Source: Candidatus Latescibacterota bacterium (lineage in GTDB: Bacteria > JAAXHH01 > JABIQT01). Taken from it: a DNA stretch of 8,248 nucleotides. Numbering within the stretch: position 1 is the first letter of the stretch; each line of letters opens with the position of its first letter. The position numbers and the translations under genes were made by a program. This document shows positions 2,897 through 8,248 of this stretch, one piece after another. Location of the stretch: assembly GCA_018667995.1 (NCBI GenBank), contig JABIQT010000683.1, forward strand, positions 1-8,248, in the 5' to 3' direction. The notes below the pieces were generated by a model that was not told the origin of the DNA, did no database searches, and was given only the letters and a program-made list of their open reading frames with translations.

Positions 2897-3802
2897 ATGA
2901 ATCGACTCAAACAGGAATCGCTCGAGCGCGCCCTGAGTTTCATCTCGGAACGTGCCCGAAGAATCGATCGAACACTGGCTCGGTACTGGTTCGATAGCGG
3001 GAGACGGGGTGACGTGCTAGATGCAGTTGCTGAGTTCCAGAATAACGATGGAGGATTCGGAAATGCGATCGAACCGGATTTCCGAGTGAAGGATTCCTCG
3101 CCTACCGCGACCACGGTGGCATTTCAGTATCTGAGATCTGTCAAGGCACCTGCCCAGCACCCGACTGTAATTCGTGGCATTAAATACCTGATGGATACCT
3201 ACGATCAGGAGCACGGCTGGTGGGAACCTGTGCCGCCTTCCGTGAATGAGGCACCACATGCGAGTTGGTGGCACTATCAGGGGCCCGCAACTGCTTTCAC
3301 TGCAAATCCGGCCGCCGAAATATGTGCCTGTTTTCAGGCCTATCCAGAAACCGTCCCGTCCAGTTTACTGGATGTGGTTACTACCCAATCCTTGAGACAC
3401 CTCACAGGCCTGCCCGATACCATGGAAATGCACGACATGCTGTGCTACCTGCATCTTGCGGATGAGGCTAATAAGGTCGTTCAGGACACTATCGTTGGGA
3501 AACTGCAACGGGGGGTGCGTGAGGTGGTCGACTTCGATACTGAGATGTATTCGGGGTATTGCGCCAAGCCGATTTGGTTGGCGTCCAGTCCGGAGTCCCA
3601 TCTGGCAGATGTGATTATGGACGGCGTAGAGACAAACCTTGATTATGAGATCTGTAACCAGTCGGCCGATGGTAGTTGGGAGCCGTTCTGGACCTGGGAC
3701 ACGTTCCCGGAGGATTGGAAGCAAGCGCGAATGGAATGGCAGGGACATCTCACCGTAAAGACGCTAAAGGCCCTGAAGGACTATGGACGGTGGCCTATCT
3801 GA
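2897..3802 (+). CDS. Prenyltransferase/squalene-cyclase-like (alpha/alpha) repeat protein, 301 aa
   Basis: The protein carries motifs resembling the QW repeats of terpenoid cyclases (Qxx(D/N)GxW/F): QNNDGGFG at 48-55, QEHGWW at 104-109 and QSADGSW at 245-251, the last followed by an aromatic run EPFWTW. Long amphipathic helices between them fit an alpha/alpha barrel. It has roughly half the length of a true squalene-hopene cyclase. I see no DxDD protonation motif of class II cyclases, so cyclase activity is not supported. Known single-barrel relatives are mostly uncharacterised or act in prenyl binding. There is no signal peptide or membrane segment. The start is preceded by GAGG only 4 nt away, possibly buried in a hairpin. 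It ends 13 bp before the convergent aminotransferase gene. Function and substrate are unknown; the fold call is moderately secure. Confidence 0.78.
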   Translation: MNRLKQESLERALSFISERARRIDRTLARYWFDSGRRGDVLDAVAEFQNNDGGFGNAIEPDFRVKDSSPTATTVAFQYLRSVKAPAQHPTVIRGIKYLMDTYDQEHGWWEPVPPSVNEAPHASWWHYQGPATAFTANPAAEICACFQAYPETVPSSLLDVVTTQSLRHLTGLPDTMEMHDMLCYLHLADEANKVVQDTIVGKLQRGVREVVDFDTEMYSGYCAKPIWLASSPESHLADVIMDGVETNLDYEICNQSADGSWEPFWTWDTFPEDWKQARMEWQGHLTVKTLKALKDYGRWPI

Positions 3803-3812
3803 TCGCGCTGGG

Positions 3813-3835
3813 TCGTCAAGCAAGTCTCTTGATGA
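3813..3835. repeat. Weak stem-loop at the convergent gene junction
   Basis: TCGTCAAG (3813-3820) can pair with CTTGATGA (3828-3835) around CAAGTCT: eight pairs, one of them G-T. It straddles the stop of the aminotransferase gene (3816-3818) and begins 10 bp after the stop of the QW-motif gene. There is no T-tract on either side, so termination activity is doubtful. It is the only structured element in the 13-bp space between the two converging genes. Confidence 0.3.
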
Positions 3836-5012
3836 GCTCGACCAACTTCTCAAGGAATCGATCGATGTCCTGGGTGGTGACATAGTAATGTGTCGATATT
3901 CGCATCGCACAGTGGCCATCCAGTGTGTGATCGTCTACGTGTAGTTTAGCCTCATCCAGGAACAGCTCGACCCATTGGGGAAGATCCACACCTGAGATAT
4001 CGAAAATAGTGGATCCAGGCGAAGATATGTCGGATGCCCGATCGGAGAGCAGGCGCACTTTCGGGATATCATGTAACCCCGCTTTGAGATGGTCAGAAAG
4101 CATCCGCAAACGACGCTGAATGTTTTGAATTCCGATCCTGTTGAGGAAATCCTGTGCGGTACCAATGGCTGCTCTTGTAGGCAGATCGTAGGTACCAAGA
4201 GACTCGTATCGAGCCGCTCCCAGAGATGCGTCCTGGTCAGAGATATACAGGGATTTGAATAGATCCTGGATGGCCTCCCGAACATAGAGAAATCCAGTGC
4301 CGCTTGGTGCCAGAAACCATTTGTGTAGGCTATTGGCGTAAAAGTCACATCCCAGATCACTGAGATCTACAGGCATCATGCCAATGGCCTGCGCTCCGTC
4401 TATGGCGGAGAGAACTCCCCGTTCAGCCGCCAGGCTTGTCAGTCGTTTCACCGGATACAGGTAGCCACCTCGCGTAACGTGGCAAAAGAACATTACCTTT
4501 GTTCTCTCTGTGATCCCACTATCCATCAATGAGACGATCTGATCGGCGCTCTCGAGTGGGCTGGGAATCGTCACTTGCTTCAGCGTGATTCCTTGGCGCT
4601 CCATCTTGATACTGACGGGTTTTAGAGCGCTGGGGTGTTCCTGCGTGGTCGTCAGTACCTCGTCTCCAGGCTTCAGATCCAGACAGTTGACGATATCGTA
4701 GAGACTCTCGGAAGCATTCCGAGTCAGCGCGATTTCCGAGGCGGCTGCTCCCAGGAAATCGGCAAGCCCGGGTCGAACGGTCTCGGCGATATACCTTGCG
4801 AGGGTACGTTTGGCATTCGTGGGGTTCCGGGAGAGCAACATGAACCCCTCCCCCACCGATTCTGCAACAGTTTTCGGGGGCATTCCCAGACTCGCGTTGT
4901 TGAGGTAGCAGTGTCCGGGATCTAATACGAAATGGGATCGCACCTGTGTCCAGTACGATATGTCGTCTGCTGCGATGGAGAGAGGATTTGGGGGGGCGAT
5001 TTCCCTTAGCAT
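3816..5012 (-). CDS. Class V PLP-dependent aminotransferase, isopenicillin-N-epimerase-like
   Basis: A 398-aa fold-type I PLP enzyme of the aminotransferase class V/cysteine desulfurase superfamily. Family landmarks are in the expected order: YLNNASLG at 36-43, TRNASESL at 97-104 (phosphate/cofactor loop), TTQEHPS at 122-128, the cofactor aspartate in AIDGAQAIG at 203-211 (D205), and the Schiff-base lysine K231 in NSLHKWFLAPSGTGFLYVR. The HKW...APxGTGFLYVR block and the N-terminal YW.QVR layout fit the CefD-like (isopenicillin N epimerase-like) branch better than NifS/IscS, and I see no active-site Cys loop of desulfurases. Most members of this branch in environmental genomes have no proven substrate. 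The start at 5012 is supported by GGAG 7 nt upstream (complement of 5020-5023). It lies 104 bp downstream of the haem/barrel gene on the same strand. Confidence 0.9.
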   Translation of the reverse strand: MLREIAPPNPLSIAADDISYWTQVRSHFVLDPGHCYLNNASLGMPPKTVAESVGEGFMLLSRNPTNAKRTLARYIAETVRPGLADFLGAAASEIALTRNASESLYDIVNCLDLKPGDEVLTTTQEHPSALKPVSIKMERQGITLKQVTIPSPLESADQIVSLMDSGITERTKVMFFCHVTRGGYLYPVKRLTSLAAERGVLSAIDGAQAIGMMPVDLSDLGCDFYANSLHKWFLAPSGTGFLYVREAIQDLFKSLYISDQDASLGAARYESLGTYDLPTRAAIGTAQDFLNRIGIQNIQRRLRMLSDHLKAGLHDIPKVRLLSDRASDISSPGSTIFDISGVDLPQWVELFLDEAKLHVDDHTLDGHCAMRISTHYYVTTQDIDRFLEKLVELIKRLA

Positions 5013-5116: not shown

Positions 5117-6262
5117 TTAGAACATCATGTGTAGCTCGAGTGACAACTGATCTTGTTTGACGCCCGTACCAAAGATAGGGTCGGCGAATACACGGGGTCG
5201 ATTAATGTCATAGAATGCCCGGAGCTGCAAAAATTCGTTAATGGTGGGCTCAAGGCCGATCCGAATCCTTTTTGCTGTTACCCCGCTGAGTCTTCGGTCG
5301 AAATAGTCGAATGCTATTTTGGCATTAACACCCTGGGACACAAGGATATTTGCTTCTCCGTATGCGGCATAGCGAACCTTGAAATCACCCAGCGTCGTGT
5401 CAAATGCTCTTATCATGTCTAACTCACCAAGGACAGTCAGAGGCCCCCCTGTGAACCCGATGAAGGGGCCGCCCATAAAGAGGGCCCGATTACTACCGGT
5501 AGCACTGGCGATGGCCAGCGGGTCCTCTGAATTTGCGGCGAAAGAAGCACCTATACGACCCCGGCTGCCCACGGCCGCGACCCGCATGGTGAACTGCTTG
5601 CCGTCATTGCTGTCGGACGTTGCGAAAGGTTCCCCATTTGAAACGGCCGCCTGAAATGAGATGTTTTTGGGTTCCAGCCCCAACTCAATACCGAAGTCCT
5701 GTCCCAGCAAACTGGTTTGACTCCGTGTATAGGGAAAATCCCAGAGACGGTAGCCAAAGGGGAGATTCATACGTCCTACCTTTATCCAGCCTCCGTGCGG
5801 TAGCCCTTCGAAAATGCCGACTAGTTCCCGACTTGTTGCTGAGCCAGGAGCTACCTGCTGGTCCATGTAGATCTTAAATCTATCCTGCTTGATTACGATC
5901 TCGGCATAGATGTTTGCTTCAAAAAGTTGGAAAGTATTGGTAACGTCCTGAGTAAAGCCAGGTCGATTGACTTCAGGTAATGTGGTATTGTGAATGAGCC
6001 GTACGTCGCCACCGATAGAAATGAAGTCCGATAGCGCGCGGTCTAAAACCATTCCAGACTCGGACGATTTGGTCGGCATTACCGGCAAGTCAGTCTGAGT
6101 AAATTCAACACCATAGAGGCTTCGCTTTCCCATTCCCGTCTGGTTGACATGACAGGCACTGCACATGAGACCTTCCCTGACCGCTATATACGGCTCGGCC
6201 TGTGTAAATCCAGGGACAGATGCAAGGGCCGTGAGGACAACAAGGATGAACAGACGGGGCAT
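5117..6262 (-). CDS. Secreted monohaem (CSACH) protein fused to an outer-membrane porin-like beta-barrel
   Basis: Starting at the ATG at 6262, the protein has 381 residues. An ideal AAGGAG (complement of 6269-6274) lies 6 nt upstream, so I reject the longer in-frame start at 6304. Residues 1-22 are a signal peptide (MPRLF, hydrophobic core, TQA cleavage site before EPY). A single c-type haem motif C34-S-A-C37-H38 follows at once, with M44 as one possible second axial ligand. The remaining 320 residues show repeated alternating amphipathic strands with aromatic girdle residues, for example WIKVGRMNLPFGYRLW, FKIYMDQQV and KVRYAAYGEANILV, and the chain ends in Phe (LELHMMF), the usual terminal signal of barrels inserted by the Bam machinery. 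The overall pattern recalls phosphate-selective-porin-like or electron-conduit barrels. The protein would sit in the outer membrane with the haem facing the periplasm. Substrate and electron partners are unknown. Confidence 0.8.
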   Translation of the reverse strand: MPRLFILVVLTALASVPGFTQAEPYIAVREGLMCSACHVNQTGMGKRSLYGVEFTQTDLPVMPTKSSESGMVLDRALSDFISIGGDVRLIHNTTLPEVNRPGFTQDVTNTFQLFEANIYAEIVIKQDRFKIYMDQQVAPGSATSRELVGIFEGLPHGGWIKVGRMNLPFGYRLWDFPYTRSQTSLLGQDFGIELGLEPKNISFQAAVSNGEPFATSDSNDGKQFTMRVAAVGSRGRIGASFAANSEDPLAIASATGSNRALFMGGPFIGFTGGPLTVLGELDMIRAFDTTLGDFKVRYAAYGEANILVSQGVNAKIAFDYFDRRLSGVTAKRIRIGLEPTINEFLQLRAFYDINRPRVFADPIFGTGVKQDQLSLELHMMF

Positions 6263-6276
6263 GGACTTCTCCTTTT

Positions 6277-6321: not shown

Positions 6322-6350
6322 TTGACGTGCAGCATGAGGATTCCTATAAT
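6322..6350 (+). promoter_or_regulatory. Sigma70-type promoter for the copZ-like gene
   Basis: TTGACG at 6322-6327 and TATAAT at 6345-6350 are separated by exactly 17 bp. The -10 is a perfect match to the housekeeping consensus and the -35 matches five of six positions. Transcription would start near 6357, giving a leader of about 46 nt before the ATG at 6403. The 17-bp spacing is normal, unlike the stretched 19-20 bp spacers typical of MerR/CueR-activated promoters, so constitutive or repressor-controlled expression is more likely. Confidence 0.75.
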
Positions 6351-6402
6351 ACTCCAACGGAATTACCACGTCAATGGGTGTCTTAGGCAGCGAGGGGGGA
6401 CT

Positions 6403-6624
6403 ATGTTTGGTAAAACTGAGAAGCTGGTAATCACAGTGGGAGGGATGTCTTGCGGCCATTGCGAGGGTAGAGTCGAGAAGGCTGTTATGCTCTGCGACGG
6501 GATAAAGAAGGCGAAGGCAAGCCACAGTGAGCGCACTGTGAAAATCACCCATGCTGCAGGTTCTGTGGTGAATATGGATGAGGTCCGCGCAGCCATTACA
6601 GAGTTGGGTTTTCAGATGGAATGA
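6403..6624 (+). CDS. copZ: CopZ-like heavy-metal-associated (HMA) domain metallochaperone, 73 aa
   Basis: A single HMA domain with the canonical metal-binding loop G14-M15-S-C17-G-H-C20 near the N-terminus. The usual beta-alpha-beta-beta-alpha-beta pattern follows: KLVITVGG strand, CEGRVEKAVML helix, KKAKASHSERTVKITH strands, MDEVRAAITEL helix, GFQME end. The two cysteines bind Cu(I), or another soft metal, and hand it to a P-type ATPase or other partner in the cytoplasm. The start at 6403 follows GAGGGGGG (6392-6399). The in-frame ATG at 6307 would add 32 residues not found in the family and would begin upstream of the promoter, so it is rejected. No CopA ATPase or regulator is encoded in the window. 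The gene stops 12 bp before the convergent batE stop. The metal specificity is inferred from the motif only. Confidence 0.9.
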   Translation: MFGKTEKLVITVGGMSCGHCEGRVEKAVMLCDGIKKAKASHSERTVKITHAAGSVVNMDEVRAAITELGFQME

Positions 6625-6636
6625 GGCTGGTCTGTG

Positions 6637-7434
6637 CTATATAATTGACAGTGACTCACGTGATATCCAACCTTCCTTTCCATCCGGCAGCAAGATTCGT
6701 TTCCAGCCGCTTCGTTGTTCGATGACGGTCACCTTGGTTCCTTCGTGAAGCGAGAACAACGGGTCATAATTATCTCCAGGGCCACTCCGTGCCGGGGACT
6801 CCTGGTCCAGGATGATAGCTTCTATCGCCCAAAAATGATCATAAAACCGAGCTCCTGCTACTGCCCCCATCAATGCCAAGACGATGGCAGACAATACTCC
6901 TATTCGATAGATCCTCCGGCGAGTAGCGTTGCTCTTGGCCAGCACAAATCCAATACATAATAGAAGAAGTACGAGACCTGGAACCGAGACGCCCAGAGTG
7001 GCCTCGTCGATAGTGAACGACTTGAGTAAGCGGTAGCCAATCCACGGTTCATCAATCTGAATTCGATCCACCGTACGCAGATTGGCTATTTCCAAATTCG
7101 TACGGGTATCGCGGTCACGAGGGCGGAGGCGAGCTGCTCTTTCATATGCGAGTATGGCCCGACCAGTTTCTTTCTGCTTAAAATAGGCGTTCCCGAGATT
7201 GTAGTAGACAGAACCGTGCTCAAATCCCAATTGGAGCATCCGTTCATAGATCCTGCTGGCCTCGGAGTACTGTTCACGTTCATAGAATTCGTTTCCCTGC
7301 CTGTACAAATCCACAATGGTGCTATCGGCTTCATTTCCACAGGCTGTGGCCAGACACAGTATTGCGAACAGGTAGTGGTATGACGAACCGAGTGTCGAAG
7401 GCCATTGCGGACCGCGAGTCTTGTGGAATTTCAT
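6637..7434 (-). CDS. batE: BatE-like protein: N-terminal signal/lipobox, TPR repeats, two TM helices, SH3b domain
   Basis: A 265-aa protein with a domain order typical of the last Bat gene. Residues 20-31 are a hydrophobic signal ending in a weak lipobox (LATA-C32), so it may be a lipoprotein. Two TPR motifs span roughly 40-110 (YRQGNEFYEREQYSEASRIYERML and YYNLGNAYFKQKETGRAILAYERA cores). Two membrane helices follow at about 149-166 (VPGLVLLLLCIGFVLA) and 178-196. The C-terminal 60 residues form a bacterial SH3 domain, with ARSGPGDNYDPLFSLHEG and GWKRILLPDGKEGWI as signatures. Its ATG overlaps the batD stop (ATGA, 7431-7434), so translation is coupled, in line with the weak Shine-Dalgarno. 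Bat proteins were named for aerotolerance in Bacteroides; their molecular role, probably an envelope complex with the MoxR/VWA proteins, is still poorly defined. Confidence 0.88.
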   Translation of the reverse strand: MKFHKTRGPQWPSTLGSSYHYLFAILCLATACGNEADSTIVDLYRQGNEFYEREQYSEASRIYERMLQLGFEHGSVYYNLGNAYFKQKETGRAILAYERAARLRPRDRDTRTNLEIANLRTVDRIQIDEPWIGYRLLKSFTIDEATLGVSVPGLVLLLLCIGFVLAKSNATRRRIYRIGVLSAIVLALMGAVAGARFYDHFWAIEAIILDQESPARSGPGDNYDPLFSLHEGTKVTVIEQRSGWKRILLPDGKEGWISRESLSII

Positions 7435-8248
7435 GACCGTTTCGTCAGCTTCTGCTCTAACGCCTCAATGACTGCCGTCGCCGTATCCAGGACTTCCCGA
7501 GCGCTCTCTTCTGTTAAAGCGGTTGGGGCAAAACGGGCCATATCACAGGCATCCAGACAGTGTTTTACTGATTCAACCGTCGTAGGGTCGAGGTCTCTTT
7601 CCCGTAATAGATCCAGGACTTGCGGTACCGTCATTCCAGCCACCGATACGTTCAGCTTATCACCCATGTATCGGTGTAAAGCTGTTGCAATGTGAGCAAA
7701 GGTCTGGTCCAGATGGTCTTGCTTCAAGGCATCCGCTGCCGTATGAAGTAATTTGCGGGTCTCGCCACGGGCTCTGCGCCACCTCGCATATCCTACATCT
7801 CTCTGCAGCCGGGAGGTATGAGATCGGTACAGAAATGCTCCCATCAGACCGAGAATCGGCGCTATATTGAGGAATATGAACCAGGGAGTTTGATAGAGGT
7901 AGTCGCCCTCATGTGCCATCACTATACCGGCTGGCTTTATATACTGGATATCCTGTCGGACCTGTCGGACGTCTTCCTTTGGCGACGTGTAGGCCATGGA
8001 GGACTCACCGTCAGCACCCGGTGCAACGCGTAGTTTGAGCGGATCTGTCATTGCCGTCTTGTAGGTCTGGCTTCGGGGATCGAAATAAGCGAAGGTGGCT
8101 GGGGCGATCTCCATATCCCCCGCCTGAAGTGGAATCAGAACATGTTTGTATACTTTCTTTCCTGAAACGGAACCGCCACTGTGCCCGATGTTCTCGGTAT
8201 TTGATGACGCATATTGCTTGAACTTCTTGAAATCTGGAAGGGCTGGAC
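7431..8248 (-). CDS. batD: BatD (oxygen-tolerance) protein, C-terminal 271 residues, 5' end beyond window
   Basis: The frame is open to the right edge (first full codon 8246-8244), so the internal ATG at 8114 is not the true start. The visible part begins PALPDFKKFKQYASS and continues GKKVYKHVLIPLQAGDMEI, then PATFAYFDPRSQTYKT and DPLKLRVAPG. This is the characteristic last beta-domain of BatD (LxxGxxxIPxxxFxYFDPxxxxYxT). A single membrane helix follows (TPWFIFLNIAPILGLMGAFLYR), then a 130-residue helical cytoplasmic tail ending LEQKLTKRS. The periplasmic repeat domains belonging to the N-terminal half lie outside the window. BatD acts in the Bat envelope module with BatA/BatB and BatE. Transcription runs leftward into batE with a 4-bp overlap. 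Confidence 0.9.
   Translation of the reverse strand, partial: PALPDFKKFKQYASSNTENIGHSGGSVSGKKVYKHVLIPLQAGDMEIAPATFAYFDPRSQTYKTAMTDPLKLRVAPGADGESSMAYTSPKEDVRQVRQDIQYIKPAGIVMAHEGDYLYQTPWFIFLNIAPILGLMGAFLYRSHTSRLQRDVGYARWRRARGETRKLLHTAADALKQDHLDQTFAHIATALHRYMGDKLNVSVAGMTVPQVLDLLRERDLDPTTVESVKHCLDACDMARFAPTALTEESAREVLDTATAVIEALEQKLTKRS

Follow-up and report, generated by a model that had tools for sequence, protein, structure and literature searches.

The window analysed here, an 8,248-nucleotide stretch of a Candidatus Latescibacterota contig, encodes on its minus strand a 381-residue protein in which a single c-type haem-binding site is followed by a predicted 16-strand outer-membrane barrel. 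We assign this protein to a widespread family of cytochrome-porin fusions with one haem, which is unnamed, apparently undescribed and distinct from Cyc2 but is built, and probably works, like Cyc2; we give this reading a probability of about 0.7. The architecture of the window protein (from sequence and fold prediction), its conservation and its gene neighbourhood have been established in the present work, and its most likely role would be one-electron exchange across the outer membrane. The features relevant to this assignment are as follows.

5117-6262, minus strand: fused monohaem cytochrome-porin gene, 381 aa, start ATG at 6262, stop codon at 5117-5119
6269-6274, minus strand: ribosome-binding site AAGGAG, 6 nt upstream of the ATG at 6262, read from the sequence
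6197-6262, minus strand: signal peptide, residues 1-22, with the cut before E23 deduced from the sequence ..TQA|EP
6110-6196, minus strand: haem segment, residues 23-51, EPYIAVREGLMCSACHVNQTGMGKRSLYG, the best-conserved stretch of the family, alignable with the haem segment of Cyc2
6149-6163, minus strand: c-type haem-binding motif CSACH (C34-C37-H38), retained in 46 of 46 aligned homologues
5120-6025, minus strand: 16-strand barrel, residues 80-381, from AlphaFold2 and VIA-align Z scores of 22-24 to 16-strand porins
5699-5767, minus strand: strand 5-6 loop, residues 166-188, NLPFGYRLWDFPYTRSQTSLLGQ, at the porin L3 position by the AlphaFold2 strand order
5129-5131, minus strand: candidate for the sixth haem ligand, H378, at position -4 from the C-terminus, present in 41 of 46 homologues
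6403-6624, plus strand: divergently oriented HMA (CopZ-like) metal-binding protein, MFGKTEKLVITVGGMSCGHC..., PF00403, E 8e-13
3816-5012, minus strand: downstream class-V aminotransferase/cysteine-desulfurase-like protein, PF00266, E 1e-48

The N-terminus, inspected by eye, is a Sec-type signal peptide, MPRLFILVVLTALASVPGFTQA|EPY, and C34 lies 11 residues past the likely cut; the chain contains one CxxCH and ends in ...LELHMMF. The initial annotation had noted precisely this lone CSACH close to the cleavage site and a porin-like barrel with a terminal Phe, and both observations stand. It had also named cytochrome c maturation genes as a check, and such genes are indeed present in the genome, with three PF01578 loci (cytochrome c assembly proteins) scoring over the cut-off. 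An exported CxxCH encoded together with a maturation system is one trait expected of a c-type cytochrome, the other being covalently bound haem.

AlphaFold2, run with 16 aligned sequences, yielded 16 strands, mostly with pLDDT of 70-90, and left the N-terminus poorly resolved; when the run was repeated on the chain without its signal peptide, the same 16 strands were obtained, within the range of about 14-18 anticipated in the initial annotation, preceded by small helices with pLDDT of 31-49. Across both runs the haem domain was modelled with low confidence (pLDDT 27-49). VIA-align matched the barrel to Omp32, OprP, OprO and OmpK36 at Z scores of 22-24 with 8-15% identity, and Foldseek likewise placed it among 16-strand porins; these matches denote structural likeness and carry no information on function. 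The general porins share the fold with the window protein, and the strand 5-6 loop would correspond to their constriction loop, but they lack a haem site. This loop is the only conserved long loop of the barrel (conservation 0.54 vs 0.10-0.36 in the other long loops), although pLDDT is low at residues 172-182 within it.

The family was delineated in two ways that differ in their dependence on the haem site. A contig scan with barrel-only patterns recovered 15 loci in metagenome-assembled genomes labelled Latescibacterota, Zixibacteria, Calditrichota, Gemmatimonadota, Neomarinimicrobiota, Deltaproteobacteria/Myxococcota and Geopsychrobacter, and every homologue found in this way whose N-terminus is present carries CxxCH. 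Given that these homologues were picked without reference to the haem site, the association of CxxCH with the barrel is not a chance one. A profile built from a 16-member alignment had matches in 13 of the 249 Gemmatimonadota genomes and, in a set of 384 genomes taken from across Bacteria, in 45 when weak matches are counted; this profile spans the haem segment, so its matches are not independent of CxxCH in the way that the barrel-pattern set is. Relatives with a CxxCHxNxTG start in environmental genomes, which the initial annotation had mentioned, thus do exist, as both searches attest.

Homologues show 32-63% identity across the full length, and the family as a whole is spread over at least seven phyla and comprises two subfamilies. 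Among 46 aligned full-length members, CxxCH (the conservation of which had been proposed as a check), P24, G43 and R47 are each found in all 46 and N40 in 39; two very weak barrel matches (L064 and L065) have no CxxCH. The near subfamily, which includes the window protein, starts with EPYLA-x-R-x-G-x-KCSxCHVNxTGGGxR and the distant one with P-[RQ]-[FY]-SA-x-YGQ-x-CxLCHxNPTGGGxR; the two lie on opposite sides of one branch (support 94/98) and align over their whole length in hhalign (probability 100, E 5e-64). The window protein has both the start that defines the family, P-x5-6-G-x2-CxxCH-x-N-x2-G-x-G-x-R, and an alignable barrel. Some distant members depart from the single motif: L105 and L107 are dihaem variants with a second CxxCH about 73 residues past the first, and L054 and L111 have two N-terminal CxxCH motifs 24 residues apart. 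For the window protein and all 16 profile members, Pfam and NCBIfam yielded no family near the cut-off; PDB sequences queried with the protein and with the profile gave nothing relevant, a search of plasmid sequences for the window family gave no match, and a literature search for CHVNPTGGG-like strings found no paper; the family is also not described in the excerpts of three papers on Cyc2 distribution (PMC10654088, PMC12442345, PMC9040806).

The initial annotation had presented a monohaem tag fused to its own barrel as an alternative without precedent. This was mistaken: Cyc2 and Cyt572, neither of which it named, are established examples of a 16-strand porin that carries one fused haem (PMC8406198, PMC5566968). 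Cyc2, described as a 16-strand porin, is a haem-bearing outer-membrane protein that is reduced by Fe(II) and a proven Fe(II) oxidase (PMC8406198). Leptospirillum Cyt572, compared with the window protein by its description, is likewise a monohaem cytochrome of the outer membrane for which a porin-like barrel of 16 strands is predicted (PMC10654088).

For sequence comparison we used six Cyc2 homologues from plasmids, retrieved with a short probe modelled on the published motif. Cyc2 and the window family have in common a signal peptide, a single N-terminal CxxCH, a 16-strand barrel and, in most cases, a nearby gene for a c-type cytochrome, which was seen in all seven Cyc2-homologue regions viewed. 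The size and architecture expected of Cyc2 (at least 365 aa, a single N-terminal CXXCH and a porin of about 16 strands) are accordingly found in the window protein. The sequence motifs are different. AXPXFAR[Q/K][T/Y] upstream of CXXCH, stated to be unique to Cyc2 (PMC8406198), is replaced by AEPYIAVREG in the window and occurs in 0 of 46 family members, although the strict pattern also fits only three of the six Cyc2 homologues collected; the PXL motif after CXXCH, present in 6/6 Cyc2 homologues, is likewise found in 0/46 members, the window having VNQTGMGKR. Conversely, N/D-x-x-G-x-G-x-R is present in 44 of the 46 and absent from the Cyc2 set. Alignment of the family with the six homologues by hhalign covered only 21-32 N-terminal columns at E values of 1e-5 to 1e-6 (pairwise, not database-corrected), with the shared spacing A-x-P-...-G-x-x-CxxCH; no barrel similarity emerged from the profile comparison, and a Cyc2 profile search of the window's own genome did not find the window gene. 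Given that Cyc2 of A. ferrooxidans, neutrophilic Cyc2 (Cyc2PV-1) and Cyt572 also show significant mutual similarity at the N-terminus only (PMC5566968), it is likely, as judged from these sequences, that the haem segments go back to a remote common origin.

The same observations could be taken further, to mean that the window family is a divergent Cyc2 cluster that descends with Cyc2 from one ancestor along its entire chain and likewise functions as an Fe(II) oxidase; the identical architecture, strand number and haem-segment spacing fit this scenario, as does the confinement of the similarity between Cyc2 and Cyt572 themselves to the N-terminus. We nevertheless consider it unlikely, given the distribution of the three motifs and a barrel that does not resemble that of Cyc2 even though the two subfamilies of the window family align throughout, as well as the last strand, which carries an invariant Trp in the Cyc2 homologues and a conserved His at position -4 in the window family. 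By the published criteria, which concern sequence features, the window family is not Cyc2, though it is built like it.

This His, H378, is the only conserved His besides H38 among the 46 members, which have no conserved Met; the five exceptions have Q, R, N or Y at this position. A His at -4 as a generic trait of porins appears less plausible, given that it is missing from the six Cyc2 homologues and from L064 and L065, the weak barrel relatives without CxxCH; the comparison covers these eight proteins. Outer-membrane proteins usually end in a pattern in which alternate residues point toward the lipid. Since strand alternation would put F381, M379 and L377 toward the lipid, H378 would be turned inward, to the lumen of the barrel at its periplasmic end, the expected site of a haem plug. 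We propose, as a specific new prediction, that the haem is held between H38 and H378.

Three lines of evidence on the mechanism agree: H378, the conserved strand 5-6 loop and the genes adjacent to the barrel gene in relatives. In 18 of 19 genomes that carry the near subfamily and do not belong to the window's order, the barrel gene adjoins a gene for a lipoprotein monohaem cytochrome c, which is marked by an invariant lipobox Cys, a CX2-4CH haem motif and Met-Pro and is also found beside several distant-subfamily barrel genes; among the 10 genomes that did not contribute to the cytochrome profile, nine have this arrangement. Given that the two genomes checked hold approximately three to five such genes, chance adjacency would have a probability below about 1% in each. 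In Calditrichota (L013), the pair belongs to a cytochrome oxidase cluster, COX1-COX3-COX4-COX3-ctaB-...-dihaem cytochrome c-lipoprotein cytochrome c-barrel. The idea of an electron conduit, one of several put forward in the initial annotation, gains support from these neighbours. Members of this lipoprotein family in Gemmatimonadota and other groups (e.g., L016, 5448-5885) have CX3CH and CX4CH motifs rather than CXXCH, and the Calditrichota locus (L013, 3442-8155) also encodes a cupredoxin-like protein and, directly downstream of the barrel, a lipoprotein with two CxxCH motifs.

That cytochrome c genes repeatedly accompany the barrel gene in relatives, joined in one case by a cytochrome oxidase cluster, bears on another interpretation, namely that the protein is a haem-gated or haem-sensing porin in which the plug controls solute permeability instead of conducting electrons. 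A plug in a 16-strand fold like that of Omp32, OprP and OprO, together with a conserved loop at the L3 position, would suit gating, and the window gene itself has no adjacent cytochrome; in view of the gene pairing in relatives, we regard this interpretation as quite improbable. The MtrCAB, PioAB and MtoAB complexes combine a barrel of 26-28 strands with a separate multihaem cytochrome. Like them, the window protein may use a barrel to carry electrons across the outer membrane, but it differs in having 16 strands and a single haem on the same chain, and the window contains no dihaem or multihaem gene.

Within the window's own order, close homologues occur in G001, as two tandem copies, and in G011 and G013. 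Five members from this order form a clade (100/99), and in none of them does a cytochrome gene lie alongside the barrel gene. The lipoprotein cytochrome profile has a match in G011 and a weak match in G001, and none in the window's own genome (85% complete assembly) or in G013. The own genome encodes, in addition to the assembly proteins, class I cytochromes c and one COX1, and one locus (L113) holds a cluster whose sequences read as alternative complex III subunits and SCO together with coxA, coxC and a coxB fused to a cytochrome c. The combination of cytochrome c assembly, cytochromes c and the alternative complex III/caa3 cluster implies that an electron route is available in this organism. 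A second copy of the barrel gene, 39% identical and cut at the contig edge, is also present (L009, 1-663; G000:C600).

Within the window, the neighbours offer no pointer to the substrate or to the direction of electron flow. The aminotransferase-like gene is syntenic in L010 only. The HMA gene is also beside the barrel gene in L010 but is missing in L011-L023. Overlapping divergent promoter-like sites, TTGACG-17-TATAAT on the plus strand and TTGACG-17-TATTAT on the minus strand, occupy 6322-6374 in the spacer that separates the HMA gene from the barrel gene, together with an inverted TTGACGTG/CACGTCAA; neither this intergenic region nor the promoter-like sites are conserved in L010. Elsewhere in the window there are a TPR-SH3 protein and a partner resembling BatE/BatD (6637-8114, minus strand), whose homologues in L011 are located upstream of the barrel pair, a homoserine-kinase-like APH (763-1791), a prenyltransferase/cyclase-like gene (2897-3802) and two plus-strand ORFs (102-857 and 1923-2843) that have no Pfam or NCBIfam match.

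The HMA gene and the promoter-like sites shared between the two strands could suggest that CxxCH binds a metal such as Cu or Zn, or forms a disulfide, with no haem involved and perhaps in connection with the CopZ-like protein. Against this, the residues around the exported CxxCH match the corresponding segment of Cyc2, for which haem is proven, relatives have cytochrome c partners, and the HMA neighbour is restricted to the window and L010, with no conservation of the intergenic DNA. The metal-only option, already raised in the initial annotation, finds no support and appears very unlikely. A role in copper handling deduced from the CopZ-like gene is weakened by the same restriction of this neighbour to the closest relative and by the lack of intergenic conservation.

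We return to the preferred reading, a fused monohaem cytochrome-porin distinct from Cyc2, for which the following mechanism can be envisaged. The protein would be exported by Sec, and the Ccm machinery would attach one haem c at CSACH. The haem domain, comprising mature residues 1 to approximately 50, would plug the periplasmic mouth of the 16-strand barrel, with H378 on the last strand acting as the second axial ligand (bis-His) and fixing the haem inside the mouth. A soluble redox substrate could then pass the conserved strand 5-6 loop into the pore and exchange one electron with the haem, and the electron would move to or from a periplasmic cytochrome c, presumably the adjacent lipoprotein monohaem cytochrome in most relatives; in the window's own genome, the partner might be some periplasmic cytochrome c that connects to the alternative complex III/caa3 oxidase chain. 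In its complete form, as a second family of one-chain conduits beside Cyc2 with a bis-His haem (the CxxCH His and H378) wired to a lipoprotein cytochrome c, this proposal is put forward tentatively, at somewhat less than even chances.

Microbial iron oxidation is recognised in genomes chiefly by Cyc2 as a marker. Current surveys may overlook or mis-score a widespread sister family that lacks both published Cyc2 motifs, the lineages concerned being Gemmatimonadota, Calditrichota, Marinimicrobia, Myxococcota, Desulfuromonadales and others. The single conserved His at position -4 offers a direct way to test how a porin holds its one haem, and extracellular electron exchange may extend to lineages that have not been credited with it.
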